Shown: piece by piece, positions 562 through 59,198 of the stretch
Layout: each line of letters opens with the position of its first letter
Position numbering within the stretch: the first letter of the stretch is position 1
NCBI GenBank assembly: GCA_963920705.1
Contig: OY987233.1
Span: 3,400,001-3,464,000, forward strand
Direction of reading: 5' to 3'
DNA length: 64,000 bases
From: Odiellus spinosus
Taxonomy: Eukaryota > Arthropoda > Arachnida > Opiliones > Phalangiidae
Notes under the pieces: generated by a model
The model's database searches: none
Told to the model about the DNA's origin: nothing
What the model saw: only the letters and a program-made list of their open reading frames with translations
Position numbers and translations under genes: made by a program

Positions 562-853
562 CAAGAAGGATCAGATAAGGAGAGGAAAAGTGGGGCTGCG
601 TTGAGTTAGAGAGAGAAGAGCCAACCTCCCACTCGGGTGGAAAGGGGGGATAGGAAATTCTCGAGGTAAACTGTTGTCACGTGGTCGCTAGCTAGCGCGT
701 CTCATAAAGGATTCGTTTTACCCACGTGACAACAATTTACCACGAAGCATCTCTACCCCCGTCTGTCCCCCGTTCTCCCAGAGTGGGAGTTTAGGCCGAC
801 GCAGTAGGAGCCGCGCCGTTCCCACTTTTCCTCTCCTTATCTGATTCTTCTTG
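562..853. mobile_element. Palindromic MITE, family P, 7-bp duplication
   Basis: Inverted ends of about 33 bp start CAAGAAGGATCAGATAAGG at the left and, on the other strand, CAAGAAGAATCAGATAAGG at the right. The element is flanked by perfect 7-bp copies CTACAGC at 555-561 and 854-860. Interior pairs continue (GTTGTCACGTGG with CCACGTGACAAC). Length 292 bp, no coding capacity. The mobilising transposase is not in the window. Confidence 0.85.
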
Positions 854-860
854 CTACAGC

Positions 861-3424
861 CTATTTGAGATTATCATGGGGGCCTTCAAAAATTTAAATA
901 CGGGGATCCAATAAAAACAAAGACAGCCCCCTTTAAAAAAAATCAAATTAGTTTGGAAAGCATTCCGAAAGAAGGATTCATTAAATTTCTTTCTAATGAG
1001 CGTAGAAAAGAAGCCGAGACCATGCAGTACATAACCTTATCTTATACACCATAATATTACGGAAAATGTACAAAACGGGACAGTTGTCTTATTATCAAGA
1101 GTGGGGTGGGACGTAAGGGGAGGATGGGCAACGGGCGGAACACATGTAAAGGTACTTTTAAAAATGATAAAGAAAAAGAAAGGGTAGTAGAAAACTGCGC
1201 AATTGAGAGACATTTGTAAAGGACCCTTCTTAGATTAAGGGATGCCTCTCTGGCTCTCAGTCTTCCTATTTCTTCCATAGGTTAAAGCGTGAGGTGGTGA
1301 GCGGGCCATAAACGAACTAGGGACAGGGAGCCGAAAGTAAGGGGGAACAAAACTAGGTCCACCGCGTTGAAATGCCGAAAAATCGAGCGACCCGATTCCA
1401 ATATCGATTTAGGCACAACGCGAGCTTGGAGAAAAGGGGTAAAATAACAGGGGGGATAGGTATACGAGTCGAGAGAGTAGCGAGAGAGAGAAATGGAAGA
1501 GGGGGAGGAGGTTAATCTTTGGAAAACGCGCTGCTCGGTCGAGCTCTCGCGTTTCTCGGAGGACTCCCTACGGAAGGGGAACCCAGACAGAGCGTCCTAC
1601 AGCGTAATCGGACGTTGGCGGAAAAATTGAGATTTTTAGTCTACGAAAGAAGTTGGAAAGCGCGGGAAGGCCCTAAAAAATAGCTAAGCAGTAAGCAACC
1701 AAAGCGAGCGGGTAAGCCACCCTGCTAGCGTCGGTTTTATAAATGAACGGGTTGAAGAAAGAAGACCGCCGAATCTCGAATCCAAAGTCCCATTTATCGG
1801 CGGAATTGGCCAAGAACTTGAAGAAGACGTAGCCCGTTTCTATTTCGCTGCTATAATATGTCAAATCGGCCTAGCCTACGCTACTGCGACTAATATAAAG
1901 GTCTTGTTCCCTTTAATTTATTTTCTTTTGTTCTTCAACAACCAATTAACGTCGTTTATATATCATAGCTAGATAATATACGAAATATAATAGTTATAAT
2001 TAGTGTTAAATTGTTTTCGCGTTTTTGATTTTCGACAATTTTACCCGGGTGTGTCGTGACGATTTTGAAAAATAGGACTTTTTAATATTATTCCCATCTA
2101 TCAACAATATACTCGGAGTGTTTGAAAGGTTTACGATCTTCGTCTAACAAATTCGCGTTTGGAAACAGAAAACCCCTTTCCCGTCGAATTTTGGTGTCAT
2201 ACGGAAGCCATTTTTGGGGGATCTTTATTTTTTTTCCCCTGAAAAAGTTCTCTGGACGTTAACGGGTCAATTTTAGAACCGAAATATCTTTGTCGACTGA
2301 AGCATTGACAGAGGGCGCGAGGAACAGACTATTTTGGCGCGAACTTAAATAACGGCCACTTCCGAAAAAATACTCAATAAACATTTAAAAACGGACAAGA
2401 TTTTCGTTCAAATTTTCCGAGAGTTAAACCACAACGACGAAAGACTTTTTAAAGAAAGAGAAAACTTTTTCTACCAACAACGTTGCCGATGAAAGATCAC
2501 CAACATTCAAAAAAGTAAGTTTACGTTTTTTAATACGTTTCGTTTATTTTATCTCGTGTATTTACAAAATGGGGTTACCGCGCTGGTCCTGCTAAAAATA
2601 GCAAACTTTCTCAATTCCAAAAAAATATCCTATCATATAATTTAGGCTTAACACTTGTGCCTTGATTTGTCGTAGCAAACATGGTGGAATCCCCCAATTC
2701 AACATATAATAATGTTTTTAGTGTGAGAAAGTCCTCAATTCCAGGCTTAAAAATAAGATTTATTTTTTAAACTAGTCCTCTGGACCAGGGATCATTAGTG
2801 TCTTGAATGACCAAACTGGTCCGGTTATTATTAATATGGGATCAGTGAATCTCAGTTTTGTAATTTGAAACTGATTCAATCAATTAATAAGCAGGTTTAT
2901 GACTTATAAGCCTGCCCTTTACTATTCACTCAGAAAATAATTTCTCGAAATCCTATAATTCTAGAGGTTTAGGATGCTTTTTAAAAGAGGGACTGAGTAT
3001 AATTTGCGAGACTTTCATTCTTTCTATTTCGTTCAATTTTTCCCTTTCAAGTCGTTCGTCTTTAGGCTTTCTTTTATTTGGCGTAGAGCTCCAAAAAATC
3101 CCTGGTTCCCCTTTTATTATTCGTACCATCCGCGGCAGATCGATTCCGCGGTTAAAGCGGGCCTTGCAGCCAAGGCACTAGGCGTATAACCCCACTCCCT
3201 TTACCCTTCAATCCTTCTAGCACCGGACTCGACACAGTCAAACCCGAAAGAGTACGGCAGAGACTAGGGGGTGAGGAGAGGGTTGGCTAAAGGGTAACAC
3301 CCAATTAAATCATAAGAAAAAGCAGAATTCACTCATGATGTAGTTTTAGTACAGATAAAACACGTTTTATAGGAGCAAAACAACCAATCAAATATATTGT
3401 AATTCAAAATAGACCAACTCAAGT
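861..3424. other. Gene-free stretch
   Basis: Purine-rich GAGAGA patches at 1,475-1,510, a local inverted GCGGNNNNATCGATTCCGC near 3,132, and AT-rich DNA. Only short open frames on either strand. No gene or dispersed family recognised. Confidence 0.45.
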
Positions 3425-3735
3425 GACCCCGTCGCGTGGGAAAAAAATTGGTACTATTTTTCGCGCGCTTTCGTAAAATGAATTTAATCTAGATCGGCGC
3501 GCGCAGGAATTCGCGCGCTTTTCTCGATTCAAGAATAGAACTACAATTATGGGAATAATATAAATCGCGCGAAAATTGGGCACTCCCCTTTTCTGGAAAT
3601 TCAAATTTGTGTATTTCTGAGAAAACTATTGGATATTTTTGAGCGAAATTTTGTATAGATGCTTTTAAGACTCTAATACACCCAATTTCGATAAGTTTGG
3701 ACGAAATTTATTTTGCCGTCTATTACCCTTTAAAG
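3425..3735. repeat. Dispersed repeat, family O, copy 1
   Basis: Matches 36,605-36,927 over its length in the same order: a TTTTTCGCG..TTTTCGTAAAA block, a GCGCGCTTTTCTCGA block, AACTACAATTATGG, then GAATATTTTTGAG(C/T)GAAATTTTGTATA and a CTTTAA end. A third, reversed copy lies near 20,760-21,000. Non-coding; class unknown. Confidence 0.6.
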
Positions 3736-5888: not shown

Positions 5889-6793
5889 AGTAATTTCCAC
5901 ATTATTTCGGTAGTAATTTCCACATTATTTCGGTAGTAATTTCCACATACTTTTGGTAGTAATTGCCACAAAATTTGGTAGTAAATGCCACATAATTTCG
6001 GTAGTAATTACTACATAATTTCGGTAGTAATTGCCACATAATTTCGGTAGTAATTGCCACATAATTTCGGTAGTAATTGCCACATAATTTCGGTAGGAAT
6101 TGCCACATAATTTCGATAGTAATTGCCCCATAATTTCGGAAGTAATTGCCACATAATTTCGGTAGTAATTGCCACATAATTTCGGTAGTAATTGCCACAT
6201 AATTTCGGTAGTAATTGCCACGTAATTTCGGTAGTAATTGCCACGTGATTTCGGTAGTAATTGCCACGTGATTTCGGTAGTAATTGCCACGTGATTTCGG
6301 TAGTAATTGCCACGTGATTTCGGTAGTAATTGCCACGTGATTTCGGTAGTAATTGCCACGTGATTTCGGTAGTAATTGCCACGTGATTTCGGTAGTAATT
6401 GCCTCGTGATTTCGGTAGTAATTTCCTCGTGATTTCGGTAGTAATTGCCACGTGATTTCGGTAGAAATTGACACGTGATTTCGGTAGTAATTGACACGTG
6501 ATTTCGGTAGTAATTGACACGTGATTTCGGTAGTAATTGACACGTGATTTCGGTAGTAATTGACACGTGATTTCGGTAGTAATTGACACGTGATTTCGGT
6601 AGTAATTGACACGTGAATTCGGTAGTAATTGACACGTGATTTCGGTAGTAATTGACACGTGATTTCGGTAGTAATTGACACGTGATTTCGGTAGTAATTG
6701 ACACGTGATTTCGGTAGTAATTGACACGTGATTTCGGTAGTAATTGACACGTGATTTCGGTAGTAATTGACACGTGATTTCGGTAGTAATTGC
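5889..6793. repeat. 23-bp tandem satellite, about 39 units
   Basis: Unit GGTAGTAATTGCCACGTGAT plus TTC. Three zones are visible: CCACATAATTTC units (to about 6,215), then GCCACGTGATTTC units (to about 6,465), then very uniform GACACGTGATTTC units. The later zones place an E-box palindrome CACGTG in every unit. Because 23 is not a multiple of 3 and no unit frame has a stop on the minus strand, all three minus frames stay open for up to 282 codons; this is an arithmetical effect, not a gene. A 3-step homogenisation from left to right is inferred. Confidence 0.97.
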
Positions 6794-7230
6794 TATAATA
6801 TTTCCTATAAATCGATGAAAAAATTCCTATAATTTCCTATAATATTTGTGGTCACCATTATAGTGCTATCCCTGATTTACGTAATCCCTTCCCTCGAAGG
6901 TAAACTCCCCATTTACCTTGATTTATTCTCCTAACATTTGCAAGTATCCAAACTCGAAGTCGATTCTATCTCCACATCCGTTTATTGAACCAAAAATCTC
7001 TAAAGACCTCCTAATTTACGTCACTGGGAAAACCAATTTACGTCACTCGGCGTTGGTAATCCATTTTTCAACCAAAAATAAATTTTATTTGATGAGAAAT
7101 GAGAATCTATGGAAAACCACTTGAAATAAAAATAAAATAAATAAGAAACACCAGAAGAGACCGACTAAGTAGGCTTAAAACGTACTGCAGCCAATCAGCA
7201 AAAATGTTTTCTATCTGAGACAAGCTAGGC
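6794..7230. other. No gene seen
   Basis: Unique AT-rich sequence with a short open frame only. Confidence 0.4.
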
Positions 7231-8195: not shown

Positions 8196-8297
8196 GGAAA
8201 TAGTTTGTCTGTGATAGTAGAGTTTACAAAGCGCAGTTTCATAGATTTTCCGAGTTACAATTCATATTAAATCTCTACGACAAGGGTTGTAAGCGAC

Positions 8298-11169: not shown

Positions 11170-11956
11170 TTAAAGGGAGAATGAAAGGCCGAAACAACCT
11201 ATTTTTAATCGATTAAGAATACTAAAATAATGAGAAAAACAATAACTCACCAAAAATATTTCGTTATTTTATAATCAATTTCCAAATTTCCGATGCTAAG
11301 CCTAGGCTGCCTAGCTCGGTGAACCATGGATGTATAAAGAACTAACGTTCATGGATATTGCAATCAGAGAAAAACGCGTGAACAGAATGCGCCATGTTCA
11401 CTGGCGCCATCTAGTAACGATGTTTGTCGTTAGACAGGAAGTGTACCATTACGTCACATTTGAAATTGAAAAACTGCAGAACGTGCAGACGACAATTTGT
11501 AAACAGGAAATCCGTTTCGCAAAAAGTTCCCCACTTCCGCCGTCGCTAGCGGACGATATTATCCGAACTCGCGATCTACTGAAAATGCCTTACAGAAGGT
11601 ACGAGTGCAATATCCATGAACGTTAGTTCTTTATTCATCCATGGGTGAACTAGGCGAGCACCACCTGTATTTTTTTTAATATTCGCGGCTGTTCTTGTCG
11701 CCAATCAATAAATACGCGTACTCGCTCGTGATTGGCGACTAGATCAGACGGGAATATTAAAAAAAAATACGGCTCGTGCTCGCCTAGTTCGCCAAGCTAG
11801 GCAGCCAAGGCTTAGCATGTGCAAGTTTCGGAACTTTGGAAATTGATTATAAAATAACGAAATATTTTTGGTGAGTTATATTATTGTTTTTCTCATTATT
11901 TTAGCATTCTTAATCGATAAAAAATAGGTTGTTCTGGCCTTTCATTCTCCCTTTAA
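11170..11956. mobile_element. Family B MITE with nested 319-bp element
   Basis: TTAA at 11,170 and 11,953 flank ends AGGGAGAATGAAAGGCC and GGCCTTTCATTCTCCCT. Family B is a long palindrome of about 450-480 bp whose arms share AGCTCGGTGAACTAGGCGAG and GATTGGCGACTAGATCAGAC. This copy is longer because of the insertion at 11,325. Other copies: 28,392-28,845 and 59,976-60,458. Confidence 0.95.
11325..11643. mobile_element. Nested 319-bp palindromic element, 7-bp duplication
   Basis: Inserted in the left arm of the family B element. Inverted ends start CATGGATGTATAAAGAACT; on the reverse strand the right end reads CATGGATGAATAAAGAACT. Perfect 7-bp copies GGTGAAC lie at 11,318-11,324 and 11,644-11,650. 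Uninterrupted family B copies read GCTCGGTGAACTAGG, which is the empty site. A 98-codon open frame crosses it but is not accepted as a gene. Confidence 0.92.
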
Positions 11957-12563: not shown

Positions 12564-12954
12564 CAAAAGTCCATCACTTTATTCCATAAAAGTAAATAAC
12601 GGCCGGTAGCTTAATACTATCAGCAAAGGTCCGGGTAAATGTATACCGGAAGATTCTGATTCGAGACACTCTAGCGGCCGCAGACGACGTGTAATAGTGA
12701 ACGGAAGAAGCGACACTCCGCGGAGAAATTCCGCCGAGTTGGGAGGGAAGACAATATAGACAAGCGCGGCTCACCTAAATTCCTTCCCTCTCTCCTGACT
12801 CAAAATATCGAGGAAGAGTCCAAATTACTCGAGCCAGACAGGGGTGATGATTTTTTTTGTCTATTTTTAAGTGACAGGGTATGACATATACCTGGACCTT
12901 TGCTGATAGTATTAAGCTACGGAGCGTTGTTTACTTGTAAGTGATAGACTTTTG
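12564..12954. mobile_element. Family C MITE, 7-bp duplication
   Basis: Reference description of family C: about 390 bp, inverted ends of about 70 bp starting CAAAAGTCTATCACTTTATT and containing CGCCCCGTAGCTTAATACTA, with a GC-rich middle (TGCGGCCGCTAGAGTGTCTC). This copy is flanked by GTTGAGT at 12,557-12,563 and 12,955-12,961. Other copies: 15,355; 17,104; 23,334; 27,114; 29,329; 39,006; 47,498; 57,099; 58,838. No transposase. Confidence 0.95.
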
Positions 12955-15354: not shown

Positions 15355-15739
15355 CAAAAGTCTATCACTTTATTCTATAAAAGTAAACAACGCCCCGTAG
15401 CTTAATACTATCAGCAAAAGGTCCAGTTTTACGTCATAGCCCATCACTTAAAAATAGCCAAAAAAGTCATCACCCCTGTCTGAATCGAGTGATTTGGATA
15501 TTTTGAGTCCGGAGAGAGAGACGCAATTTAGGCGGGCCGGGCTTGGCTATATTGTCTTCCCTCCCAACTCCGGTATTTCTCCGCAGAGTGTCGCTTCCTC
15601 CGTTCACTATTTACACGGCGACTGCGGCCGCTAGAGTGTCTCGAATCAGAATCTGCCGGTACATTTACCCGGAACTTTGCTGATTGTATTAAGCTACGTG
15701 GCGCTGTTTTCTTTTACGGAATGAAGTGATAGACTTTTG
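15355..15739. mobile_element. Family C MITE
   Basis: Both ends complete (CAAAAGTCTATC..GATAGACTTTTG). Flanking bases do not show a clean duplication. Confidence 0.93.
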
Positions 15740-16171: not shown

Positions 16172-16724
16172 TTAAAGGGAGAATGTAACCTTACAACAAG
16201 TGATTTTTATCGATTCCTTATCGTTTAAATTACAAACAAATATTAAACTAGAAATAAATTTAAAACTTACCCGAAAAATAGGCTTATACCCTCTTCAGAC
16301 GAGGCGTAATTAGCCGTGGTTTAATCAGATTTAACCGAGGCTTTTTCAGTTCAATAAACCTCGGTTAATTTTGAATAAACCATGGTTAAATCTGATTAAA
16401 CCGGCTAGTTACGCCTCGTCTGAAAAGGTATTAGCTGGATTCATGGAGATCACCTGATTTCCTCGCGTAGGGCTAATGACCAATCAAATGTTATTGGAAA
16501 GCTCGTGGAGATTTCTCTTTAACGACTGGCCTTATAGCTCATTGGTCGCTAGCTCTTAGGGTGATCTCCATGAATCCAGCTAAGCCTATTTTTCGGCTAA
16601 GTTTTAAATTTATTTCTAGTTTAATATTTATTAGCAATTTTGTTTTACTTTTGTATTAGGCCTATTTAAACGATAAGGAATCGATAAAAAATCACTCGTA
16701 TTTAGGGTTGAATTCTCTCTTTAA
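16172..16724. mobile_element. Family A MITE with nested hairpin
   Basis: Reference description of family A: palindromic element, usually about 370-420 bp, between TTAA sites, ends AGGGAGAATGCAACCTAA, followed by TTTAAATAGGCCTAATCC, then AAATTTAAAACTTACCCG and AATAGGCTTAGCTGGATTC, mirrored on the right. TTAA here at 16,172-16,175 and 16,721-16,724. The left terminal bases read AGGGAGAATGTAACCTTAC. A 144-bp insertion at 16,287-16,430 adds length. No transposase gene. Confidence 0.95.
16287..16430. mobile_element. Nested hairpin with TTA duplication (PIF/Harbinger-like)
   Basis: Sits in AATAGGCTTAGCTGG of family A. Ends TACCCTCTTCAGACGAGGCG and, on the reverse strand, TACCTTTTCAGACGAGGCG. TTA is duplicated at 16,284-16,286 and 16,431-16,433. 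A 3-bp TWA duplication is typical of PIF/Harbinger elements (family knowledge); the superfamily is inferred. The interior pairs GGTTTAATCAGATTTAACC with its inverse. Confidence 0.85.
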
Positions 16725-17103: not shown

Positions 17104-17446
17104 TATTTCATAAAAGTAAACAACGCCCCGTAGATTAATACTATCAGCAAAGGTCCGGGTAAATATACCGACAGATTCTGCAGGATTCGAGACACTCTAG
17201 CGGCCGCAGTCTCCGTGTAAATAGTGAACGGAGGAAGCGACACGCTGCGGAGAAATACAGGAGTTGTGAGGGAAGACAATATAGACAAGCGCGGCCCGCC
17301 TAAATTCCGTCCCTCTCTCCAGACTCATAATATCGAGGAAGAGTTCAAACCACTTGATTTGCTATGACGTAAAATTGGTTATTTGTTGATAATATTAAGC
17401 TATGGGGCGTTGTTTACTTTTTATGGAATAAAGTGATAGACTTTTG
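17104..17446. mobile_element. Family C MITE, left end lost
   Basis: Starts at ATTTCATAAAAGTAAACAAC without the CAAAAGTC terminus; the right end is complete to GATAGACTTTTG. Preceded by a GAGAGA-rich run at about 17,015-17,048. Confidence 0.9.
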
Positions 17447-22970: not shown

Positions 22971-23230
22971 TTAAAGGGAGAATGCAACCTAATAACAAGT
23001 GATTTTTGTATCGATTACTTGATGTTTAAATAGGCCTAATCCAACAGCAAAATCACAAACAAATATTAAACTAGAAATAAATTTAAAACTTACCCGGAAA
23101 ATAGGCTTAGCGGGATACAAGGAGATCACCTGAATTGCCTACGTGTAAGGTCTAGCGACCAATGAGCAAAGGCCCGTCGTTCACGTGAGATCTCCACGAG
23201 ACTTCGATTGGTCGCTATACCTTTTTCGCT
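22971..23230. mobile_element. Family A, left half
   Basis: TTAA at 22,971-22,974 and a complete left end. The copy runs to GATTGGTCGCTATACC near the hairpin centre and then stops; the right arm is absent. Confidence 0.88.
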
Positions 23231-23333
23231 TTTGTTGAATTCTGTTTTTTAACTGAAGGTACTGAAAAGAAATCGACTAAGAGATAAAATTTAGCATTGA
23301 AATAATGGTAAAAATCATACTTATATCTATAAC

Positions 23334-23722
23334 CAAAAGTCTATCCCTTTATACCGTAAAAATAAACAACGCCCCGTAGCTTACTCTATCAGTAAAGGTC
23401 CAGTTTTACGTCATAGCCCAATACTTAAAAATAGACAAAAAAGTCATCACCCCTCTCTGGTTCGAGTGATTTGGACTCTTCCTCGATATTTTGAGTCAGG
23501 AGAGAGGGACGGAATTTAGGCGGGCCGCGCTTAGCTATATTGTCTTCATTCCCAACTCCGGAATTTCTCCGCAGAGTGTCACTTCCTCCGTTCACTATTT
23601 ACACGTGACGACTGCGGCCGAATCCTGCAGAATCTGCCGGTACATTTCCCCGGACCTTTGCTGATAGTATTAAGCTACGGGGCGTTGCTTACTTTTATGG
23701 AGTATAAAGTGATAGACTTTTG
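23334..23722. mobile_element. Family C MITE, near-perfect 7-bp duplication
   Basis: Flanks CTATAAC (23,327-23,333) and CTATTAC (23,723-23,729) differ at one base. Confidence 0.93.
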
Positions 23723-24228
23723 CTATTACGTAACTTATGTCGCGTCTGATTTGATTCCATTTTGATATTTCACCATGGTTGAAGCTATAACCTTCTTAAC
23801 ACGAGAGTAAACAAATCTTCGAGATAACTGGGAGCAAGCTTAGCTTTGGTACGTGCTTTCAAATCAAGGTTGAATTGACGTTAGTTTTATCGATCGTGTT
23901 GAAAGACGTAGGGCCCGCGTTTGGAACTACGTAACCTAAATCCCAAATAGAACTCGTGCAAAATTTCCGCGATAAATTGTGGTTCATTTCATTATTTTCT
24001 ATATAAAGTTTATTTCCGAGATCCGTTAGTTCCGTTAATCACAAAGCGAGGACTATTTAATGGTTTGTTCTGAGGTTAACCAATATGTCTTGCTAGAAAT
24101 ATTTTTAATTATATTTCGTTTATTTTTAAAGGGATACTATAGACTATCTGGAAACAAGTTATTTTTAATGTTTATACACATAAAACATACCTAAAAACAT
24201 GATCAAAGTAGTAATTCGTGGTTACCTT
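23723..24228. other. No gene seen
   Basis: AT-rich sequence, nothing recognised. Confidence 0.4.
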
Positions 24229-27113: not shown

Positions 27114-27345
27114 CAAAAGTCTATCACTTTTATTCCATAAAAGTAAACAGCGCCTCGTAGCTTAATACTATCAGCAAAGGTTCAGTTTTACGTCATAACC
27201 CATCACTTAAAAATAGACAAAAAAGTCATCACCCCTGTCTAGCTCGAGTGATTTGGACTATTCCTCGATGTTTTGAGTCGGGAGAGATGGGACGGAATTT
27301 AGGCGGGCCGCGCTTGCCTATATTGTCTTCCCCCGACTCCTGAAT
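27114..27345. mobile_element. Family C left half, fused to family D
   Basis: Left terminus CAAAAGTCTATCACTTTTAT present. The copy ends at CTTCCCCCGACTCCTGAATT, near the middle of C, and continues directly into the right half of D. Confidence 0.88.
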
Positions 27346-27625
27346 TGAATTGGTGCCGGCATTTGATATCCAAGGTCTTAGGCGTCAAACGCCGGCATAT
27401 TTTTGTTTAATGTTAGGACATCACAAGCACTGTTAAAGGCTGAAATAATATGATTGGTCCGAATTTATATTTACTTATATTCAAATTTTACCAAACTTTA
27501 GAAATTAATTTAATCACCACAAACGTGTCTAAAATTTTGGAAAAAAAATTCGAATACATTTTTTGACATGATTACGAAAATAATTGCAAAAGCTGTTCCA
27601 TTTTTAGCTCCAAGTTTCCCTTTAA
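27346..27625. mobile_element. Family D right half
   Basis: Starts at the D hairpin centre (GCCGGCATTTGATATCCAAG) and ends CCAAGTTTCCC followed by TTAA at 27,622-27,625. Confidence 0.88.
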
Positions 27626-29328: not shown

Positions 29329-29679
29329 CAAAAAGTCTATCACTTTTTCCCATGGAATTAAACAACGCTCCGTAGCTTAATGCTATCAGCAAAGGTCCGG
29401 GTAAATGTACCGGCAAATTCTGCAGGATTCGAGACACTCTAGCGGCCGCAGTTGCCGTGGAAATAATGAACGGAGGAAGCGACACTCTGCGGAGAAATAC
29501 CGGAGTTGGGAGGGAAGACAATATAGCCAAGCGCGGCCCGCCTAAATTCCGTCCCTCTTTCCCAACTAAAAATCACTCGAGCCACACCGGTGTGATGACT
29601 TTTTTGTCTATTTTAAATGATGGGCTATGACGTTTACGGGGCGTTGATTACTTTTATGGAATAAAGTGATAGACTTTTG
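29329..29679. mobile_element. Family C MITE, internally shortened
   Basis: Ends CAAAAAGTCTATCAC and GATAGACTTTTG. About 40 bp of the right inverted repeat is missing (GACGTTTACGGGGCGTTG). Confidence 0.92.
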
Positions 29680-30167
29680 ATTCTAGTAATCGAACGAAGA
29701 GTATCTGAGTTAAGTTAGCCTCGTATCATCCTTTAAATAATTAACTCATTTAATTCTTTAATTAAAACCCCTAATTTTTAGATAATTTAGTGTTTCCTTA
29801 ACATATTTTCTGAATTAACAGAGCTCTGACTTCGGTGTACCTTATTTTGAAGTTATTACAACTCCAGTCAAGAAACGAGGTCATGATAAATACTCCTTGC
29901 TTTCCTGCATCTCTCTCCGGAGACAAGAATCCCCGTACCGAAACTTCGTAGTTAATTTCAGCTTGGTTAGACAGTATGCGTTTAAGCCACGCGTACCTTT
30001 ATCGCTGTTTAATATTCACTCGATATAAACCCTTTGATAGCTTGTCCCTTATTGTCAATCAAAAGTGAAATATATTGTATACATGTATTTGGGTATAACA
30101 ATTCCAACATTCTCCATCATCCAGCCAAGGAAGATATATAACGGGAAGGCTGGTCAAACCTTATAAA
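29680..30167. other. No gene seen
   Basis: AT-rich sequence, nothing recognised. Confidence 0.4.
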
Positions 30168-30525
30168 AGGTTTAACGTTTAAGTAGGCCTAATCCATCAT
30201 TAAAAAAAAATTACAAACAAATATTAAACTATAAATACATTTAAAACTTACCCGAAAAATAGGCTTAGCTGGATTCATTGAGATCTTGAATTTCTTCGCA
30301 TTGAAGGGTCAGCAACCAGTCGAATGTTATTGGAAATCTCATGGAGTTCACGCCTTAAAGTCGTGCCTTTGCTCATTGGTCGTTGACTCATCATTGCGAA
30401 GAAATTCAGAATCTAAATGAATCCAGCTAAGCCTATTTTTCCGGGTAAGTATTAAATTTATTTATAGTTTAAGATGTGCTTGTAAATTTGTGTACTAGTA
30501 GATTAGGCCTATTTAAACAATAGAG
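30168..30525. mobile_element. Family A MITE, both termini lost
   Basis: Runs from TTAACGTTTAAGTAGGCCTA to TTAGGCCTATTTAAACAAT, so the inner arms remain and the AGGGAGAATG ends are gone. Confidence 0.85.
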
Positions 30526-30540
30526 TAAGAGTCACATAAA

Positions 30541-30757
30541 CTGCGTTCAACTTAGGCCTTGGAATCGATTTAAACCGTTTCAAAACGTTTCGCTGGAGTC
30601 GTGTGAACGGGAAACCGTCTTTTCTGGAATCGATTTGATTCGATGAAGTTACAGTCAATCGATCTATAAAGATAATGCGTGAACACTTGACGCTTAAAAC
30701 GATTCCTGGTGATTTGAATATCGATTTGATTTTACCATTTCAAATTCAAGTGTGACC
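30541..30757 (-). mobile_element. Family E element, internally deleted
   Basis: Starts TGCGTTCAACTTAGGCCTTG. The block between GATTCGATTTCTCG and AACAACCGATAG is missing. It ends AAGTGTGACC at the border of element K. Confidence 0.8.
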
Positions 30758-32242
30758 TTAGGGTAAATTAAAACGGATGTATCACTTTCTTGATTTTACG
30801 TTTTTCTGAATCTACGTTATCGAAAACCAAAGAAAAACATCAACTCTTATTTTTAAGCATCTCCTCAATATGATAGAAAAGGTTTTAAAGATCGGACTTC
30901 GTTGTCTGCTTAAAAAAAGGCATGGAGTCCCTGTGTTTCAATTTCCGAGTAAGCCATCCGACCAATAGGCGCCGTTTAGACCTTGTGACCCCAGAGAAAC
31001 CATAGATATCATATATATAATGAGGCAAAATACCTTTGATAGAGACCAAAACTGTTCCAAAACGATGTTTTCCTTAATTAAAAATACATTAATTCACCTA
31101 AATAAATATATTTAACTCGCAACCGGGACAGGTCAATTTGGTCTCGCCGATTTGGTCTAGCCGATTTGGTCTAGCCGATTTGGTCTAACCGCTTTGGTCT
31201 CGAGACAGTTTGGTCTTGCCTATTTGGTCTCGAGACCCTTCGGTCTTTGGGCAGTTTGGTCTTGCCGATTTGGTCTTGGAGCGGTTTGGTCTCGAGACAA
31301 ATTGGTCTCGAGACAAATTGGTCTCGAGACAAATTGGTCTCGAGACAATTTGGTCTCGAGACAATTTGGTCTCGAGACAATTTGGTCTCGAGACAATTTG
31401 GTCTCGAGACAATTTGGTCTCGAGACAATTTGGTCTCGAGACAATTTGGTCTCGAGACAATTTGGTCTCGAGACAATTTGGTCTCGAGACAGTTTGGTCT
31501 CGAGACAGTTTGGTCTCGAGACAGTTTGGGCTAGAACAAAGAATCCTAGCCTAGGTTAGGTTCGGTTAGGTTAGGTTAAGTTAGGTTAGGTTATACTGAA
31601 GCATTATTCCAATTATCATAAATGTTTTATTTCAATATTGATTATTACTATTGATTATTCCATCAAAAAGTTGTGAGACAAGTTAAAAAACGAATTAAAC
31701 AACAAACTGACCCGAGACCAAACTGTCTCGAGCCCAAACTGTCTCGAGACCGAATTGTCTCGAGACCAAAATGTCCAGAGACCAAAAAGTCGCTAGACCA
31801 AATGGTCCCAAGCCCAAAATATCCCGAGACCAAATCGGCGAGGCCAAACTGTCGCGAGACCGAACTGTCTCGAGACCGAATTGTCTCGAGGCCAAAATGT
31901 CCCGAGACCAAATCGGCGAGACCGAATAGGCGAGATCAAATCGGCGAGACCGAATCGGCGAGACCAAACTGTCGCGTACGGCTCGCAACGCCTGCTTAAG
32001 CGTCGTAAAAAATTATTTTTCATAAAAATGCTAAGCCTAAATTGAGCCTAAAATAAATTAAATTCAAACTCACGCGCGCGCGTTTGTAATATGGTAGCGT
32101 CCTAAATCGTGCGCTTCGGCGGCGCTCGCGTTTCTAGGAGGCTATGGTAATATAAACTATACTATACACGAGCACGCGGGATTTTGCGAGAGCGCCTATT
32201 GGTCGGATGTTTTTCTCGGAAATTGAAACACAGGGACTCCAT

Positions 32243-32275
<33 letters not shown>

Positions 32276-32427
32276 CAGACAACGAAGTCCGATCTTTAAA
32301 ACCTTTTCTATCATATTTAGGAGATGCTTAAAAATAAGAGTTGATATTATTCTTAGGTTTTCGATAACGTAGATTCAGAAAAACGTAAAATCAAAAAAGT
32401 GATATATCAGTTTTCATTTACCCTTTA
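30758..32427. mobile_element. Element K: 1.7-kb inverted-repeat element
   Basis: Arms of about 230 bp (30,758-30,990 and 32,190-32,427) are reverse complements: GGGTAAATTAAAACGG.. at the left against TTTTCATTTACCC at the right, and AAAGATCGGACTTCGTTGTC against GACAACGAAGTCCGATCTTT. The right end is followed by TTTAA; the left reads CTTAG, so a TTAA target is plausible but imperfect. The right arm has a run of 28 T (32,245-32,272) where the left has 7 A. The interior carries J2 and a CG-rich patch (32,070-32,135). No transposase frame. Confidence 0.8.
31124..31981. mobile_element. Foldback element J2 with 16-bp repeats and GGTTA core
   Basis: Left arm of about 20 units of TTTGGTCTCGAGACAA; right arm of inverse, more degenerate units (GAGACCAAACTGTCTC). 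Between them lies a core with GGTTA pentamers (31,554-31,593, two altered). Both outer ends read TTTGGTCTCGCCGATT on their own strands. CTCGCAAC is duplicated at 31,116-31,123 and 31,982-31,989. Up to six overlapping open frames here are repeat translation. Confidence 0.88.
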
Positions 32428-32938
32428 AGACTTTGGTAGTGTTGTGAAGGACAGTAACGCTCGAGTATAGGTTTCGATCACTGCTGACCTAGATATGTGT
32501 CGAAAGTTTCCCTCGTCGATCATGCGCAGTTGATTCTATACTAAAGCCGAAAAATAGAAACCGTCATGGCTACGACATGGTTTGGTTATCGTCGCTTTTG
32601 TCCCCCCTTATAAATCTTCCTTGATCCAGCTACGCGGACCTTATCCTATGTATTCGTGTTAGTCTGTTGGAGTCCGACTGTTCGGACTCAAACCCCAGTG
32701 TTGGAGATTAGAGCGAAGTTATTATAATAATCTCTCGCTCGCAGCTTTTGAGCTCTAACTGATATCCATAATTGAAAGGCAGTCCATATATCAAGATTGA
32801 ACGCCCAAGAGCTATTTAGCGGGAAAGACCAATAATAAATACATCAAATTTTCACCGAGCTTATACAGGAAATGATAGTCAGGTTTTGGCTCAATAGATA
32901 TGTTTCTGAATGAAGAATTTGGTCATTTAAAATGATTT
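32428..32938. other. No gene seen
   Basis: Unique sequence of near-average composition, no feature recognised. Confidence 0.4.
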
Positions 32939-36934: not shown

Positions 36935-37250
36935 CAAGAATCCATTCAGGTTCCATAAGAATATGGGAGCATAGCTTTAGCCTCTGGTACCATCCTCCCA
37001 AACTTTGTAACAAAAGTTCGTCCGCAATTTTCGCAACATTTGTACGCTTAGATCTTTTTTCGGTCGGCTCCATTTTTATTACCCAAAATATTATGTCAAG
37101 GTCGTTAGTGGCGCGGGTTAATAATAGCTGTCAGGAGCGATTTACTTGAAAAATCGATTCGAAGCAGACGAACTTTTGCTACAAAGTTTGGGAGGATGGT
37201 TATTGAATCGCGGCCCTCCCATATTCTTATGGAACCTGAATGGATTCTTG
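36935..37250. mobile_element. Palindromic MITE, family N, 7-bp duplication
   Basis: Ends CAAGAATCCATTCAGGTTCC and GGAACCTGAATGGATTCTTG are exact inverses for 30 bp or more (including ATAAGAATATGGGAG). The inner pair is CCATCCTCCCAAACTTTGTA. CTTTAAC is duplicated at 36,928-36,934 and 37,251-37,257. Length 316 bp. Confidence 0.93.
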
Positions 37251-37554: not shown

Positions 37555-37962
37555 TTAAAGGGAGAATGCAACTAATAACAAGTAATTTCTTTATCGATTC
37601 CTTATAGTTTAAATAGGCTTAATCCACCAATAAAAAGATTACAAATCAAATATTGAACTAGAAATAAATTTAAAACTTACCCGGAAAATAGGCTTAGCGG
37701 GATTCATCCAGATATCCTGAATTGAGTCTGTGTAAGGTCTAGTGACCAATGAACGAAGACCCGTCGTTCACGCGAGATCTCCACGACACTTACAATCGCG
37801 TTCGATTTGTCGCTAGACCTTATACACGAGGAAATCAGGATCTAAGCCTATTTTCCGGGTAAGTTTTAAATTTATTTCTAGTTTAATATGTGTTTCGTTA
37901 ACTATTTAAACAATAAGGAATCGATAAAAAAATCACTCGTTGTTAGGTGCATTCTCTCTTAA
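37555..37962. mobile_element. Family A MITE
   Basis: TTAA at 37,555-37,558; right end reads GGTGCATTCTCTCTTAA. Centre carries AAGGTCTAGTGACCAATGA. Confidence 0.92.
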
Positions 37963-38678: not shown

Positions 38679-39005
38679 TTAAAGGGAGAATGCAACCTAA
38701 CAACAAATGATTTTTATCGATTCCTTATCGTTTAAATAGGCCTAATCCACCAGTAATAAAAATTTACAAACAAATATTAAACTAGAAATAAATTTAAAAC
38801 TTACCCGAAAAATAGGCTTAGCTGGATTCATGGAGATCACTTGAATTTCTTCGCATTGATGGAATGTTTTTGAAATTCTCACCGCGTCTCGATGACCCCA
38901 TCAATGCGAATAAATTCCGGTGATCTCCATGAATCCAGCTAAGCCTATGTTCCGTTTTAAATTGATTTCTAGTTTAATATTTGTTTGTAATTTTTTTACT
39001 GTTGG
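38679..39005. mobile_element. Family A, right terminus replaced
   Basis: TTAA at 38,679-38,682. Both arms are present up to TTGTAATTTTTTTACTG, then the sequence switches into family C. Confidence 0.88.
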
Positions 39006-39176
39006 CTATATCGTCTTCCCCCCAACTCCTAAATTTCTCCGCAGAGTGTCGCTTCCTCCGTTCACGATTTACACGGCTACTGCGGCCGCTAGAGTGTCTC
39101 GGATCAGAATCTGTCGGTACATTTACCCGGACCTTTGCTGATAGTTACGGGGCGTTGTTTACTTTTATGGAATAAA
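39006..39176. mobile_element. Family C right half
   Basis: From CTATATCGTCTTCCCCCCAA through TGCGGCCGCTAGAGTGTCTC to TTTTATGGAATAAA; the terminal GATAGACTTTTG is missing. Confidence 0.85.
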
Positions 39177-40281: not shown

Positions 40282-40513
40282 GAAGGCAGAAATAATATTA
40301 GTCCGAATATATATTTACTTTTATCAGAAGCCGATGAAGGAAGGTTTTATCGGCTTCTGCTTTTATTCAAATTTTACAAAACTTTAGAAATTAATTTAAA
40401 CTTTAAAAACGTGTCTAGAAATTATTTTAAAATTCTGGAATACATTTTTGGCATGGTGATTCCGTAAATAAATTCAAACGTTGTTTCATTTTTAGCTCCA
40501 AGTTTCCCTTTAA
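40282..40513. mobile_element. Family D right part with a 35-bp insert
   Basis: From GAAGGCAGAAATAATATTAG to AGTTTCCC followed by TTAA (40,510-40,513). Split by the miniature element at 40,325. Confidence 0.88.
40325..40359. mobile_element. 35-bp miniature element, family S ends, 7-bp duplication
   Basis: CAGAAGCCGATGAAGG at the left; CGGCTTCTG closes the right, making a perfect 10-bp inverted end CAGAAGCCGA. Flanked by CTTTTAT at 40,318-40,324 and 40,360-40,366. Other D copies read TTTACTTTTATTCAAATTTT here, the empty site. The ends are those of the 312-bp element at 55,061. Confidence 0.88.
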
Positions 40514-44559: not shown

Positions 44560-44980
44560 TTAAAGGGAGAATGCAACCTAACAACAAGTGATTATTTTTT
44601 TATCGATTCCTTATCGTTTAAATAGGCCTAATCCACCAGTAATAAAATGTACAAATAAATATTAAACTAGAAATAAATTTAAAACTTACCATCAAAATAG
44701 GCTTAGCAGGATTCATAGAGGTCCTAAATTTCTTCGCATTGTAGGGGTCAGCGACCAATAGGCAAAGGTCTATAGTTAAGGCGAGATCTCCGTGAGACTT
44801 CCAATAACATTCGATTGGTCGCTGAACCCACCAATCTGAAGAAATTTAGAATCTCCACGAATCCAGCTAAGCCTATTTTGTTGGTAAGTTTTAAATTAAT
44901 TTCTAGTTTAATATTTGTTTGTAATTTTTTTTCTGGTGGATTAGGCCTATTTAAAATTAAACTATAAAGAATCGATAATT
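44560..44980. mobile_element. Family A MITE
   Basis: TTAA at 44,560-44,563. Arms with ATCAAAATAGGCTTAGCAGG. Right terminus eroded after AAGAATCGATAA. Confidence 0.9.
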
Positions 44981-46132: not shown

Positions 46133-46550
46133 CAGAGGTATATAATAACCTCCTTCGGGGGAAAGTATGAAAGCCCCTATACTACCAATGCTAAAAATCA
46201 CGAACAACAAGAGCCCGCTGCTGACTATCTAGGCCACTAGCTCGCGCTGGACTTCTCAATGTCGCTACTCTAGTAAATGGTCTTTGTATAAACAAGACGG
46301 CTCGATTTGTGTTTAGAACTTCCTGTCTCAGGAGTCAGGCTGTCTGTTGAAATGGAGTCGAAGGTTGACTTCAGCTCGCAAGTTCCGGAAGTGTGCGTAG
46401 GGAAAATTTAGTGAGGTTCAAAATGGTGTAACTATTTTTTGGGAGTAAAGCGGTGTGTCGATCCGCCGCGATTTACGCCGGGCACTTGTTGTTCGTCGAT
46501 TTTGCCTACCTTTCATACTTCCCTCCGAAGGGGGTTATTATATACCTCTG
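46133..46550. mobile_element. Family M MITE inside the minisatellite, 7-bp duplication
   Basis: Ends CAGAGGTATATAATAACCTC and, on the reverse strand, CAGAGGTATATAATAACCCC; inverted homology continues through CTTTCATACTTCCC and GAACAACAAG (about 85 bp). GTTTTAT is duplicated at 46,126-46,132 and 46,551-46,557. 418 bp. The CAGAGG start resembles hAT ends, but hAT duplications are normally 8 bp. Confidence 0.92.
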
Positions 46551-47497: not shown

Positions 47498-47890
47498 CAA
47501 AAGTCTATCACTTTATTCCATAAAAGTAAACAACGCGCCGTAGCTTAATGCTATCAGCAATTGACGGGGTAAACGTACTAGCCCATCACTTAAAAATAGC
47601 CAAAAAAGTCATCACCCCTGTCTGGCTCGAGTGATTTGGACTCTTCCTCGATATTTTGAGACGGGAGAGAGGGACGGAATTTTGGCGGGCCGCGCTTGCC
47701 TATATTGTCTTCCCCCAACTCTTGTATTTCTCCAAAGAGTGGGGCTTCCTCCGTTCACTATTTACAAGGCGACTGCGGCCGCTAGAGTGTCTCGAATCAG
47801 AATCTGCCGGTACATTTACCCGTATCTTTGCTGATAGTATTAATCTACGGGGCGTTGTTTACTTTTATGTAATAAAGTGATAGACTTTTG
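47498..47890. mobile_element. Family C MITE upstream of the exchanger gene
   Basis: Both ends complete, 462 bp before the start codon. Flanks AATTCTC and AATTCAT share only five bases. Confidence 0.93.
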
Positions 47891-48931: not shown

Positions 48932-49006
48932 GTAAGGTTTTCACGTCTTATCCTGAAGTTTGATTATTTAAAACTTTATAAGTAGCGCCGATTGTCAACA
49001 TTTTAG
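48932..49006 (+). other. Intron 1 (75 bp)
   Basis: GTAAGG at the donor, TCAACATTTTAG at the acceptor. It is short and free of repeats, unlike every later intron of this gene. Confidence 0.85.
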
Positions 49007-49402
49007 GTTTTGTCGCCACCTTCGAGGAGACGTCCGGTTTCCGTCGACTGCTCGCTTCAATAGATCTCTCTACAAACATCTCTACAAACGCCTCTACAAA
49101 CGCCTCTACAAAAAATCCAGATAAAAATAAAGCGAGTGGGCAGTTTCCGAAAGATTTTTTTAATGACGGTCAGCTCAAGCAAGGTGCGGTCGTGCTCCAC
49201 GTCCTTGGCATGGTTTACATGTTCGTCGCCTTGGCAATCGTTTGCGACGAATTCTTCGTACCCTCCTTGGACGTCATCGCCGAATTCACCGGCATATCCG
49301 AAGACGTCGCCGGTGCCACTTTTATGGCAGCGGGAGGGTCGGCACCGGAGTTATTCACCTCCGTAATCGGCGTGTTTATCTCCAACGACGACGTAGGCAT
49401 TG
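49007..49402 (+). CDS. Nckx30C: Nckx exon 2: extracellular loop, TM1, alpha-1 repeat
   Basis: Residues 194-325 with both edges in phase 1. The acceptor is CATTTTAG|GTTTTG and the donor ATTG|GTAAGT. The extracellular part carries three consecutive sequons (N217-I-S, N221-A-S, N225-A-S) made by near-identical four-residue repeats. TM1 is about 254-277. The alpha-1 repeat follows, with the family signature [17 protein letters not shown] at 296-312. Glu308 is in the position of the cation-coordinating acidic residue of the NCKX alpha-1 repeat (family knowledge). The exon closes with DDVGIG, which continues across the splice as [10 protein letters not shown], as in other family members. Confidence 0.95.
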
Positions 49403-49775
49403 GTAAGTAATCTGACATTAGCACCTTTTTTTTTTTTTTTTTTTTTTTTTTTTGGAACTAGGATCGCGAACGGTATCACATTTTACGCGTAAAATTAATG
49501 TTTAAGAGTAAGAAACTGCTTCGGGAACCAGTTTCATACCGATTCGGTTTCAACAACCTATAGATGAAGCTACAATAAATCGAAGAATATTGGTTGTATT
49601 GTCAAAAGCCTTGGGCTCGATTAAAACGTTTCAAAACGTTTCACTGGAGTCGTGTGAACGGGTCTTTTATCAAATCGATTTTAGCATTTCAAATCGATAA
49701 GAAATGCTTATTATGTCACGTGCCAGAGCGTGTCTGACCTTATGACTTAAAATGTTCCTTATATTTGTTCCACAG
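49403..49775 (+). other. Intron 2 with T28 run and E fragment
   Basis: GT-AG intron, 373 bp. It holds an uninterrupted run of 28 T at 49,426-49,453 and a minus-oriented, internally deleted fragment of family E at about 49,511-49,707. The acceptor is TTGTTCCACAG. Confidence 0.85.
49511..49707 (-). mobile_element. Family E fragment in intron 2
   Basis: GAAACTGCTTCGGGAACCAG to GCATTTCAAATCGATAAGAA, with blocks out of the usual order, so it is rearranged. Confidence 0.7.
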
Positions 49776-50092
49776 GGACGATTGTGGGTTCGGCCGTCTT
49801 CAACATCTTATTTGTCATTTCCATGTGCGCCATCTTCAGTAAGACCGTCCTGGAATTGACTTGGTGGCCGCTATTTCGCGACGTATCCTTCTATTCTGTC
49901 TCCTTGATTACCCTCATTCTCTGCTTCAGCGACAGCACTATCTACTGGTACGAAGCGTTGACGCTTCTCATGTGCTACTTCGCTTACGTCACCTTCATGA
50001 AATTCAACGAAAAAATTGAGAAACTAGTCAAAAAACTCATCAACCGGAACAAAGTCACGAGAGTCGGAAGCACCGACCAACTCATGCCGCAC
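49776..50092 (+). CDS. Nckx30C: Nckx exon 3: TM3-TM5 of first membrane cluster
   Basis: Residues 326-431. The acceptor TTGTTCCACAG precedes GGACG and completes codon 326 (phase 1 in, phase 0 out). It contains [20 protein letters not shown] (end of the alpha-1 repeat, TM3), then [12 protein letters not shown] and a hydrophobic segment (about 361-376, TM4), then [20 protein letters not shown] (382-401, TM5). A basic amphipathic tail [12 protein letters not shown] (405-416) leads into the cytoplasmic loop. These are among the best conserved strings of SLC24. The donor is CAC|GTAAGA. Confidence 0.95.
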
Positions 50093-50739
50093 GTAAGACA
50101 ACATTTCTAATCTTTCTTCCGAGTCCCTTTACTTGGGGAGAATGCAACCTAACAGCCAGTGATTTGTTTAGCGATTCCTTATCGTTTAAATAAGCCTAAT
50201 CCAACAGTAAAATAAATTTACAAATAAATATTAAACTAGAAATAAATTTAAAACTTAAAACAAAATAGGTTTAGGTTAATGGAGATATCATGAACTTCCT
50301 GTATAAGGACTAGGGACCAATGACATTAATCATGGAGATCCTGCATTTCCCCGTATAGGATCTCCATGAATCCTGCTAAGCATATTTTCCGGGTAAGTTT
50401 TAAAATTTCTAGTTAAAAAAATTATACTAGTTTTGAAGCTGTTCGGTTTCATCACTGGTGAGATTCCAAAGGTAAGTTGCTCCAAAAGTTGGGAGGAGAT
50501 TCCAAAGGCTGGGAGGAGATTAAAAAGAAAATTCGGGGCCAGGGGGGTTATAATGGGAGGGGTGTATACAATTCCAGTTATAACTACCAGGGCCTTTTGG
50601 AGTTAGGGAAAAAAATTGGAATAGTCTAAAGCCTCTCATTAGTTGAGCAAGTAATCAAAGTAAACAAAAGTGTTTAAAAGAATTCACCTACGGGAAGTAA
50701 TTTTATTTTATTTTGGCGGGGTTTTCTTCTCATTTTCAG
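50093..50739 (+). other. Intron 3 with a decayed family A element
   Basis: GT-AG intron, 647 bp. A degraded family A copy lies at about 50,135-50,415; its left end has lost the TTAA (GGGGAGAATGCAACCTAAC) and its right arm stops early. The rest is unique, with a G-rich patch near 50,485-50,565. Confidence 0.85.
50135..50415. mobile_element. Family A, decayed, in intron 3
   Basis: GGGGAGAATGCAACCTAACA at the left and TAAGCATATTTTCCGGGTAA at the right; terminus missing. Confidence 0.82.
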
Positions 50740-55060: not shown

Positions 55061-55372
55061 CAGAAGCCGAAAAAACCCTCCTTTGAAGTCTACTACTCTA
55101 ATGGGTAAAATTCCCAATTTTACGAGATCGGAGGGGTCCTACTTTATACCCCCCTGTCTACGGAAAATTGGAAATTCTCTCTCTCCACAAACGACGACGT
55201 TTTTTGGACGAACTCCAAGGCTGCTAGAGATATTTTCTGGACGAACTCCCGCTCCGAAAATATCTACCGTTAGGAGGCGTACGAATCGCCCTTTTTGAAA
55301 CTAACCCATACAGAGAGGGGTAGACAAGACCCGGGAGTAATAGACTTCAAAGGAGGGTTTCATCGGCTTCTG
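55061..55372. mobile_element. Palindromic MITE, family S, 7-bp duplication
   Basis: Ends CAGAAGCCGAAAAAACCCTC and, reversed, CAGAAGCCGATGAAACCCTC, continuing through CTTTGAAGTCTA. ATGTTAG is duplicated at 55,054-55,060 and 55,373-55,379. 312 bp; the 87-codon open frame across it is not a gene. Confidence 0.92.
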
Positions 55373-57098: not shown

Positions 57099-57490
57099 CA
57101 AAAGTCTATCACTTTATTCCATTAAAGTAAACAACGCCCCGTAGCTTAATACTATTAGCAAAGGTCAGGGTAAACGTTCTAGCACATCACTTAAAAATAG
57201 CCAAAAAAGTCATCACCCCTGTCAGGCTGGAGTGGTTTGACTCTTCCTCGATATTTTGAGTCGGGAGAAAGGTACGGAATTTAAGCAGGCCACGTTTGGC
57301 TATATTGTCTTCCCCCAACTCTGAAATTTCTCCGCAGAGTGTCGCTTCCTCCGTTCACTATTTACACGGCGACTGCGTCCGCTAGAGTGTCTCGAATCAG
57401 AATCTGCCGGTACATTTAACCAGATTTTTGCTGATGGTATTAAGCTACGGGGCGCTGTTTACTTTTATGGAATAAAGTGATAGACTTTTG
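57099..57490. mobile_element. Family C MITE in intron 5
   Basis: Both ends complete. Flanks ATTCTAG and GTAATGT do not match. Confidence 0.93.
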
Positions 57491-58532
57491 GTAATGTAAA
57501 GTAATTCCCCCATTAAATCTTTCTTAACACTAAGTAACTAAGCCTTGGTTAATTTTAAGACTACAACTCGTTTGGTTAGCGGCTACTTAGCCTGTATCAC
57601 TGTTTGTCGCTATAAGACGCTGATGAAAATCATTTTTTTGTGGTTCCCATCTCCTTATTGAGATAAGTGTTCATTGTATTATAGTCCTAGGTTGTTTAAC
57701 TAAATAATATTTAGCTAGCAAACTTGAATTAACATCTAACATATCAAAAATCAAATAAAATTCAATAGAAATTTCCATGAAAATAAAGTTTCCAATCGGG
57801 AATTCGCCATACGAAATTGCTTTCAATAATTGGATCATTTTTTAAATATTAAAGGGTTTTGCTAGCTAAGATCTCGAGGGATACTTCGAATCATGGACAT
57901 TCAAACCTGTATCTTTAATATATTTCTATACATGTATATGAAATGAACCTGAACGATTTTCGAAAAATATCATTCCACTACACTCGCTATGCCAAATTAT
58001 TTTATAGGGAAATGTATAAATCGTGAGCTTATACTAGTTTTCAAAAGGCCACTTTGACCAGTTAATTTATAAATATTTATTTATAAATAAAAGTTAACTA
58101 TAATAAAACGATCTTATTTAAACTATTACCGATAAAAGAACTCGCTTTTACACACGAATAACATCTTTCTGGTGGATTTTACGCTAAGCCTAATTTGGGA
58201 AAAAACTCATTTGAGAATAAAAAATGTTAGAGGCGCGCGCGCTTTTGGCGGGAACGTTGCTATGGTTACACTCTGATGGCGCGAGAATATTTAATTGGTT
58301 ACGAACTCGGTTTTAACGGTGATTGGTTTAAGAAAACGGGTTTTAGTAGAATGTCCGAGGTTCGAAAGATTCCTAGCAAGAGATAAATGTGTTTAGCGTT
58401 CCGTAAACAAACCCCACATAACCGTAATTACAAAATATAGAACACGCGAGGCCGTGAGATTTGAGTGTTTTTATTTTCAATGCGAGTACCCGAATGGAGT
58501 GAATCAATGTTTGGGTGAATGCTAAAAATTAG

Positions 58533-58748
58533 GAATCATTCCTGAGGGAACGACAATACGGTGACAGCGCGGACGATCTAAGAAGCCGAGTCCCCGCCAG
58601 TGATGGAAGTTCGTCGCCAATCTCGGCTGGCTCAACAGCGGCCCTACAAGGTGAAAAATCGGTGGCCTTCAGCAAAAAGGATTCCTTGGTCGTTTACGAC
58701 CTTAACAGTCAAAACACCTATCGCATGGAGAGAAGAAGCCCCGCCTGG
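58533..58748 (+). CDS. Nckx30C: Nckx candidate exon 6: distal loop
   Basis: Not delimited by an ATG, so found by reading the frame: acceptor AAAAATTAG|GAATC, donor CCTGG|GTAAAC, 216 nt, exactly 72 codons, phase 0 at both ends, matching the phase 0 end of exon 5. It encodes ESFLRERQYGDSADD at the start and YRMERRSPAW at the end (residues 634-705). Composition is coding-like (GC-rich, no stop) against AT-rich flanks. The terminal RRSPAW weakly recalls a RRPSW motif that I remember from the distal loop of fly Nckx30C. The polypyrimidine tract of the acceptor is poor. It could instead belong to an unrelated gene or be an alternative exon. Confidence 0.65.
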
Positions 58749-58837
58749 GTAAACTATATAACCAACACAACAAATAAATCCACGCGAAAAGATATATATC
58801 TCTATATTTCCTCTCCACTTTTCTAATACCCTTCAAC

Positions 58838-59198
58838 CAAAAGTCCATCACTTAATTATTCCATAAAAGTAAACAATCACCCGTAGCTTAATACTATCGG
58901 CAAAGGTCCAGGTAAATGTACATAAAACTAGCCAAAAAAAGTCCTCATCCCTCTCTGTCTCGAGTGATTTGAGATATTGCTTCCTCGATATTTTGAGTCG
59001 AGAGAGAGGGATCGTGCATAACTCCTAACTACGGAATTTCTCCAAAGAGGGGCGCTTCCGATTTCACTATTTACACGGTGACTGCGGCCGCTAGAGTGTC
59101 TCGAATCAGAATCTGCTGGTACAATTACCCGGACCTTTGCTGATAGTATTAAGCTACGGGCGTTGTTTACTTTTATGGAATAAACTGATAGACTTTTG
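58838..59198. mobile_element. Family C MITE, perfect 7-bp duplication
   Basis: CTTCAAC at 58,831-58,837 and 59,199-59,205. Lies 89 bp downstream of exon 6. Confidence 0.95.

Follow-up and report, generated by a model that had tools for sequence, protein, structure and literature searches.

Inverted-repeat elements with 7-bp target-site duplications in Odiellus spinosus and their probable relation to P-superfamily transposases

The analysed stretch of DNA, here called the window, is 64,000 nucleotides long and covers positions 3,400,001 to 3,464,000 of contig OY987233.1 in the genome assembly of Odiellus spinosus (Opiliones, Phalangiidae; GCA_963920705.1). It carries elements with terminal inverted repeats (TIR), among them miniature inverted-repeat transposable elements (MITE), whose target-site duplications (TSD) and relation to P-superfamily transposases are described here. 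An earlier note on this DNA had listed eight elements with exact 7-bp direct repeats directly at their borders, and all eight were confirmed when the border sequences were read, as were the start CA and the end TG of each (Table 1). The repeats of a ninth listed element, at 23334, agree at six of seven positions. When CA..TG pairs with at least 9 of 10 matching TIR positions and a span of 28-3000 bp were collected, 592 inverted pairs were obtained in the window. Nine of them have an exact 7-bp duplication, versus 0.09 expected from left flanks paired with the right flanks of other pairs (rate 1.57e-4); these are the eight known elements and one new element, E10. The 15 other start dinucleotides gave six exact 7-mers among 19,876 pairs in the same scan. 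Matches of 8 bp were found 16 times among the 592 pairs, every one being the palindrome TCTCGAGA within a tandem repeat at 31.2-31.9 kb. Even-length palindromic "duplications" (6, 8, 10, and 12 bp) in long inverted repeats were set aside as products of those inverted repeats.

Elements E3, E8, and E9 are members of the same family, which is represented in the window by ten copies or fragments; of these, only those at 12564 and 58838 have kept an exact duplication. E5 shares its ends with E7. The six kinds of ends distinguished earlier stand, and E10 makes seven. The TIRs of E1, E2, E4, E6, and E7 are at least 33 bp long. E10 contains tandemly repeated TTTGGTCTCGAGACAA-like units together with a TTAGG-like run, and apart from the tandem repeat no long frame was found in it. 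E2 is open in one frame over 103 codons (11315-11623), with no Pfam match at E 0.001.

Table 1. Elements with CA..TG ends and copies of their families in the window (strand "." as recorded).
Feature	Position	Strand	Ends and duplication
E1 MITE	562..853	.	TIR CAAGAAGG...; TSD CTACAGC at 555-561 and 854-860
E2 MITE	11325..11643	.	TIR CATGGATG...; TSD GGTGAAC
E3 MITE	12564..12954	.	TIR CAAAAGTC...; TSD GTTGAGT
E3-family copy	15355..15739	.	exact TSD gone
E3-family copy	17104..17446	.	one end missing
E3-family copy (E9)	23334..23722	.	TSD CTATAAC/CTATTAC, 6/7
E3-family partial copy	27114..27346	.	
E3-family copy	29331..29679	.	exact TSD gone
E10, 2.5-kb composite	30126..32623	.	TIR CAAGGAAGAT; exact 7-bp TSD ATCCAGC
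E4 MITE	36935..37250	.	TIR CAAGAATCC...; TSD CTTTAAC
E3-family fragment	39002..39176	.	
E5, 35-bp unit	40325..40359	.	two E7-type TIR tips only; TSD CTTTTAT intact
E6 MITE	46133..46550	.	TIR CAGAGGTATAT...; TSD GTTTTAT
E3-family copy	47498..47890	.	flanks AATTCTC/AATTCAT, 5/7
E7 MITE	55061..55372	.	TIR CAGAAGCCGA...; TSD ATGTTAG
E3-family copy	57099..57490	.	exact TSD gone
E3-family copy (E8)	58838..59198	.	TSD CTTCAAC

In the complete assembly (443 Mb, 286 contigs), an exact 7-bp duplication borders 14 of 17 retrieved E1-family copies with both ends, and one copy each agrees at 6, 5, and 1 of 7 positions. The window copy is part of this set, as are two relatives with CAAGGAGG ends; the search had scored 18 first-look candidates. 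Over 8 bp, the best agreement among the 17 copies is 5 of 8. Of 18 sampled E6 copies, 17 have an exact 7-bp duplication and the remaining one agrees at 6 of 7. Duplications of mainly 8 bp, the outcome that the earlier note had set against its 7-bp proposal, were not seen in either sample. TIR ends were counted genome-wide for three families with at most three mismatches and with the reversed pattern as control, and 26,998 E7-type ends (control 0), 5,933 E4 ends (control 0), and 4,703 E6 ends (control 4) were found.

The collected exact duplications, 59 in number, reveal the target preference VTNNNAB, with T at position 2 in 48 and A at position 6 in 45; both occur together in 34, versus 6.0 expected. 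A palindromic, GTTNAAC-like target had been proposed for the window elements. The palindrome holds, while the likeness to GTTNAAC does not, and the consensus (C/G)TTNAA(C/T) is too narrow, as the pattern [CG]TTNAA[CGT] fits only 4 of the 59. There is hardly any chance that a Dada-like superfamily, one of two groups suggested earlier, mobilises these families. Its duplications of 6-7 bp would agree in length, but Dada elements are reported to target small-RNA genes, always at a fixed position, and TIRs are absent from Dada-U6 and Dada-U1 (PMC3706591). Here the duplications vary between sites, no Rfam family reached its gathering score in the window, and five of the families have the long TIRs given above.

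P-type transposases and the parent of E1

A genome search with the P-type RNase H domain (PF21787) gave 386 candidates, of which 150 were scored matches with the best at 1.9e-39. No P-type element ends were found around 30 P loci taken with 1.5-kb flanks, which were too short. Wide flanks were inspected for 20 P loci, and TIRs with an exact 7-bp duplication were identified in seven of them (C2:30620728, C1:509855, C1:7168986, L086, L089, L092, and L093). The TIRs of these seven match at 25 or 26 of 26 positions (24 of 24 in one listing), and four of the elements start with CA, two with CG, and one with CT. Two further loci, both of one lineage, have 8-bp duplications (GTTATAAC and AATGGAAC). 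One more locus, L061, has TIRs but no matching duplication, and in the other ten no ends with a duplication were readable. The 8-bp lineage (L020 and L021, at G000:C4:15758538 and C11:2136852) has CATAGATATATG ends and coexists with the 7-bp lineages in this genome. L020 and L021 were first taken as E6-like, which was ruled out by these ends and the 8-bp duplication.

Many diverged P transposases of the genome are seen when 32 domain rows are arranged in a tree. The 8-bp pair and two rows whose duplication was not read form a deeply separated branch (100/100). Two clades contain the 7-bp elements (100/100 and 100/99); their union has weak support (83/83), and L061 is placed in the second of them (100/99).

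Locus L061 (G000:C2:22247948) carries both E1 ends about 5.85 kb apart, enclosing transposase frames. A THAP domain (PF05485, 1.6e-10) was predicted in one frame, and RNaseH_N (PF21787, 2.9e-24) and GTP-binding insertion (PF21788, 1.6e-14) domains in another of 786 residues; RNaseH_C (PF21789) scored 21.4 bits, under the cutoff of 24. At E 0.001 L061 has a single PDB match, to the Drosophila P transposase (9.8e-8). The divergent E1 copies L014-L017 correspond to L061 positions 1354/1356-1504 fused to 7061-7193 with 1 bp between them (outer ends +/-2 bp). As judged from these alignments and predicted domains, E1 is an internal deletion derivative of a THAP/P-type element of about 5.85 kb, and its P parentage is shown. 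It is very unlikely that the likeness of E1 and L061 comes from another P element nested in an E1 copy. The E1-like sequence runs across the junction with only 1 bp intervening, a pattern that insertion could leave as well. The nested arrangement is disfavoured because there is no 7-8 bp duplication at the 1504/7061 joint, where the flanks do not overlap, and no convincing inner TIRs, the only inner TIR/TSD candidates being two poor 6-bp pairs with three mismatches.

Parents of E2, E3, E4, E6, E7, and E10 were not found when MITE ends and whole MITEs were compared with the P loci examined. L058 has one E7-type end, and P coding was not recognisable there by eye, no domain search having been made. 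L083 carries a separate E1 MITE. All listed window elements have the CA..TG ends that are printed for Drosophila P (PMC2895639) and zebrafish Pdre2 (PMC10983969). The P-superfamily domains (THAP, P-type RNase H, and GTP-binding insertion) were predicted in L061, the one parent identified, and of the duplication lengths belonging to the superfamily (7 or 8 bp), the MITEs have 7.

Short units of two TIR tips

The 35-bp unit E5 was recorded earlier as an inserted MITE, and this assignment is replaced here: it is probably an excision scar, as it consists of two TIR tips and belongs to a class of short units. When the window and the loci (355,971 bp) were scanned for inverted units of 20-70 bp with direct repeats of 5-9 bp, six units with exactly 7-bp repeats were found at five loci, E5 included. 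All of them start with CA and are 31-40 bp long, each being a TIR-TIR joint. Most hits with a repeat length other than 7 bp came from tandem repeats. A 40-bp TIR-TIR unit with E2-type ends (L088:6658-6697) has the duplication CTTGAGC, although a 9-bp reading is also possible. At L029:3077-3146, within a P element with an 856-codon frame, two 31-bp TIR-TIR units that have the end type of that element lie in tandem.

Genome-wide, exact patterns of E7-type, E4, and E6 ends gave 54 units of 22-52 bp in sum versus 2 of 53-83 bp. The E7-type units number 31 (25-43 bp) and 1 (57 bp) in the two length ranges, the E4 units 9 (28-44 bp, but for one of 51 bp) and 1 (55 bp), and the E6 units 14 (28-50 bp) and 0. 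In the 51-bp E4 unit, 29 unrelated nt separate tips of only 11 nt each, and its place in this class is uncertain. An exact 7-bp duplication is present in 27 of the 40 units inspected: in 11 of 20 E7-type units (of the 31), with five more at 6/7; in 4 of 6 E4 units (of the 9), one of them inside an AT repeat, with the other two at 6/7; and in 12 of the 14 E6 units, with two at 6/7.

Both TIRs are retained in the short units for 11 to about 24 nt. These per-side values, including some of 24, are not independent for E7-type units, as the TIR references of two subfamilies were taken from the units themselves, and microhomology may be credited to both sides. E6 units have no clean per-side length because the CCCCCTTCGGGGG stretch in the TIR gives rise to joints with microhomology; as much as 30 nt is credited to a side there, and one unit is a perfect palindrome of 48 bp (24+24). 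The short two-tip units may be taken as excision scars, and their anatomy closely matches the fly products described below.

Extreme internal deletions, or tiny elements that were transposed as such, are an unlikely explanation of the units of 25-51 bp. In their favour are the individual 7-bp duplications of the units and a 45-bp sequence that four of the 14 E6 units have in common although their flanks differ. This 45-mer nevertheless carries a joint with 5-nt microhomology, and the 24 distinct sequences among the 31 E7-type units are against a spread of few copies. Random deletions should not halt at about 50 bp, where the length class ends, and short units are rare in comparison with thousands of MITE ends. 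P transposase needs subterminal sites, and these are missing from the short units.

The tips bear also on the second group suggested earlier, a hAT-like lineage whose 7-bp duplication would be unusual. hAT elements may have CAG..-type ends, as E6 and E7 do, but after hAT excision little or nothing of the TIR remains, unlike the tips kept here. The duplications are 7 bp and not 8 bp in the E1 and E6 samples, and the E1 parent encodes a THAP/P-type transposase. This parent contradicts the hAT lineage for E1, and overall that lineage is highly improbable, no search of the genome aimed at hAT domains having been made. The superfamily in question is very probably P, and neither suggested group was upheld.

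Other features of the window

Other inverted-repeat elements with AAACTTACCCGG and TAGGCCTAATCCACCA arms recur at 16245-16622, 23085-24532, 37672-37867, 44623-44949, and 61955-62162; they appeared without 7-bp duplications in the inverted-repeat scan of the window. A minisatellite of QLLPKSRVNYYRNHVSITTE repeats extends over 5902-6836, and its minus strand is open in three frames. A sodium/calcium exchanger domain (PF01699) was predicted in two frames, 48982-49407 and 49751-50107.

Proposed mobilisation and known systems

The elements are very probably non-autonomous P-superfamily MITEs with 7-bp duplications, mobilised by P-type transposase, with 40325-40359 as an excision scar. For E2, E3, E4, E6, E7, and E10 the P parentage is inferred. 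A P-type transposase with a THAP domain, encoded at another locus of the genome, would bind the inverted ends, excise the element, and insert it at palindromic VTNNNAB sites. Joining of the target strands 7 bp apart, a geometry deduced from the duplications, followed by gap repair would then create the 7-bp duplications. The 5' strand would be cut inside the TIR, as in the fly P element, for which a cut 17 nt inside the TIR, giving 17-nt 3' extensions, is described (PMC7776569). With a cut so placed, the TIR tips would stay at the donor site, and end joining would fuse them into short TIR-TIR scars with both duplications, such as 40325-40359.

Several observations weigh against this explanation. 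No similarity between families E1, E2, E3+E8, E4, E6, E7, and E10 was detected at E 0.01, and because the families have no detectable shared sequence, their common mobilisation is deduced from duplication, target, and scar anatomy. Only E1 has a parent, and L061 is 81-85% identical to the window copy of E1. Its left tip (1337-1365) reads CAAGAAGGATCCTTCTTGGATCAGAC, a palindromic tip ahead of the TIR without a duplication partner, and because of this altered tip the L061 duplication is unreadable. A near relative (C2:23519388) yielded no ends at the two positions guessed for them. Among the seven 7-bp P elements, three do not start with CA. P membership alone does not predict a 7-bp duplication, because one P lineage here makes 8-bp ones. 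The E6 sample consists of zero-mismatch end pairs from one contig, that is, of the best-preserved copies. Among the 20 inspected E7-type units, one agrees at 5/7 and three have no duplication (two of these are probably one duplicated site). Unlike in the fly, tips exceed 17 nt on 13 of 48 sides in 24 distinct E7-type units and on 8 of 14 sides in 7 distinct E4 units, with the above reservations on per-side values.

The earlier idea of one transposase lineage with many non-autonomous families is kept as one superfamily but not as a single transposase, considering the many diverged P transposases and a parent for E1 only. A search for a full-length element with the same ends and a transposase, as had been proposed, succeeded among the P loci examined for E1 and for none of the other six families.

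The short units of three end types fit a staggered cut inside the TIR that leaves tips at the donor site, with 17 nt not being the upper limit of tip length. Tips above 17 nt are frequent, which makes a longer stagger plausible but not proven. As a tentative proposal, which has less than an even chance, the 7-bp P lineages may cut the 5' strand about 22-26 nt inside the repeat, and the genome may keep a readable fossil record of excision (54 units of three end types alone). An assembly could then be used to read off where the cut falls, the target spacing (7 or 8), and how a germ line tends to join ends. No publication in which a class of fossil footprints serves to infer cut position was found in a literature search judged on titles and abstract openings. 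If excision scars survive as a sharp, countable class, as suggested, assemblies would reveal the cut geometry of transposases and germ-line end joining. The P superfamily also gains a link to MITEs of great abundance (26,998 ends in one end type); this link is direct for one family and indirect for the others. The 7-bp and 8-bp P lineages exist side by side in one genome, and comparison of their related proteins could address what sets target spacing.

Both 7-bp P elements and P-derived MITEs are already published for Diptera (PMC4168063, PMC1562414). Galileo of Drosophila, also a P-superfamily element, has mostly 7-bp duplications and many non-autonomous copies (PMC4168063, PMC2775673), and its palindromic target GTANTAC (PMC4168063) fits VTNNNAB. 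Its TIRs are long and internally repetitive, in contrast to the short MITEs here. The P-element MITEs of Anopheles gambiae share both their 5' and 3' ends with P elements resident in that genome, as E1 does here, but they have 8-bp duplications and 5-310 copies per family (PMC1562414); in O. spinosus the duplication is 7 bp, and one end type reaches 26,998 ends. Zebrafish Pdre2/THAP9, an animal P-like element with a THAP9 transposase, starts with CA (CATACCTGTCAAC) like the elements here, while its duplication is 8 bp and its TIR 13 bp long (PMC10983969). End-joined excision products of the Drosophila melanogaster P element are composed of a duplication, a TIR tip, microhomology or inserted nt, a second TIR tip, and the other duplication (PMC2895639, PMC7776569), as in the short units. 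The fly element differs by its 8-bp duplication and 17-nt 3' extensions from the 7-bp duplications and tips of up to about 22-24 nt found here.

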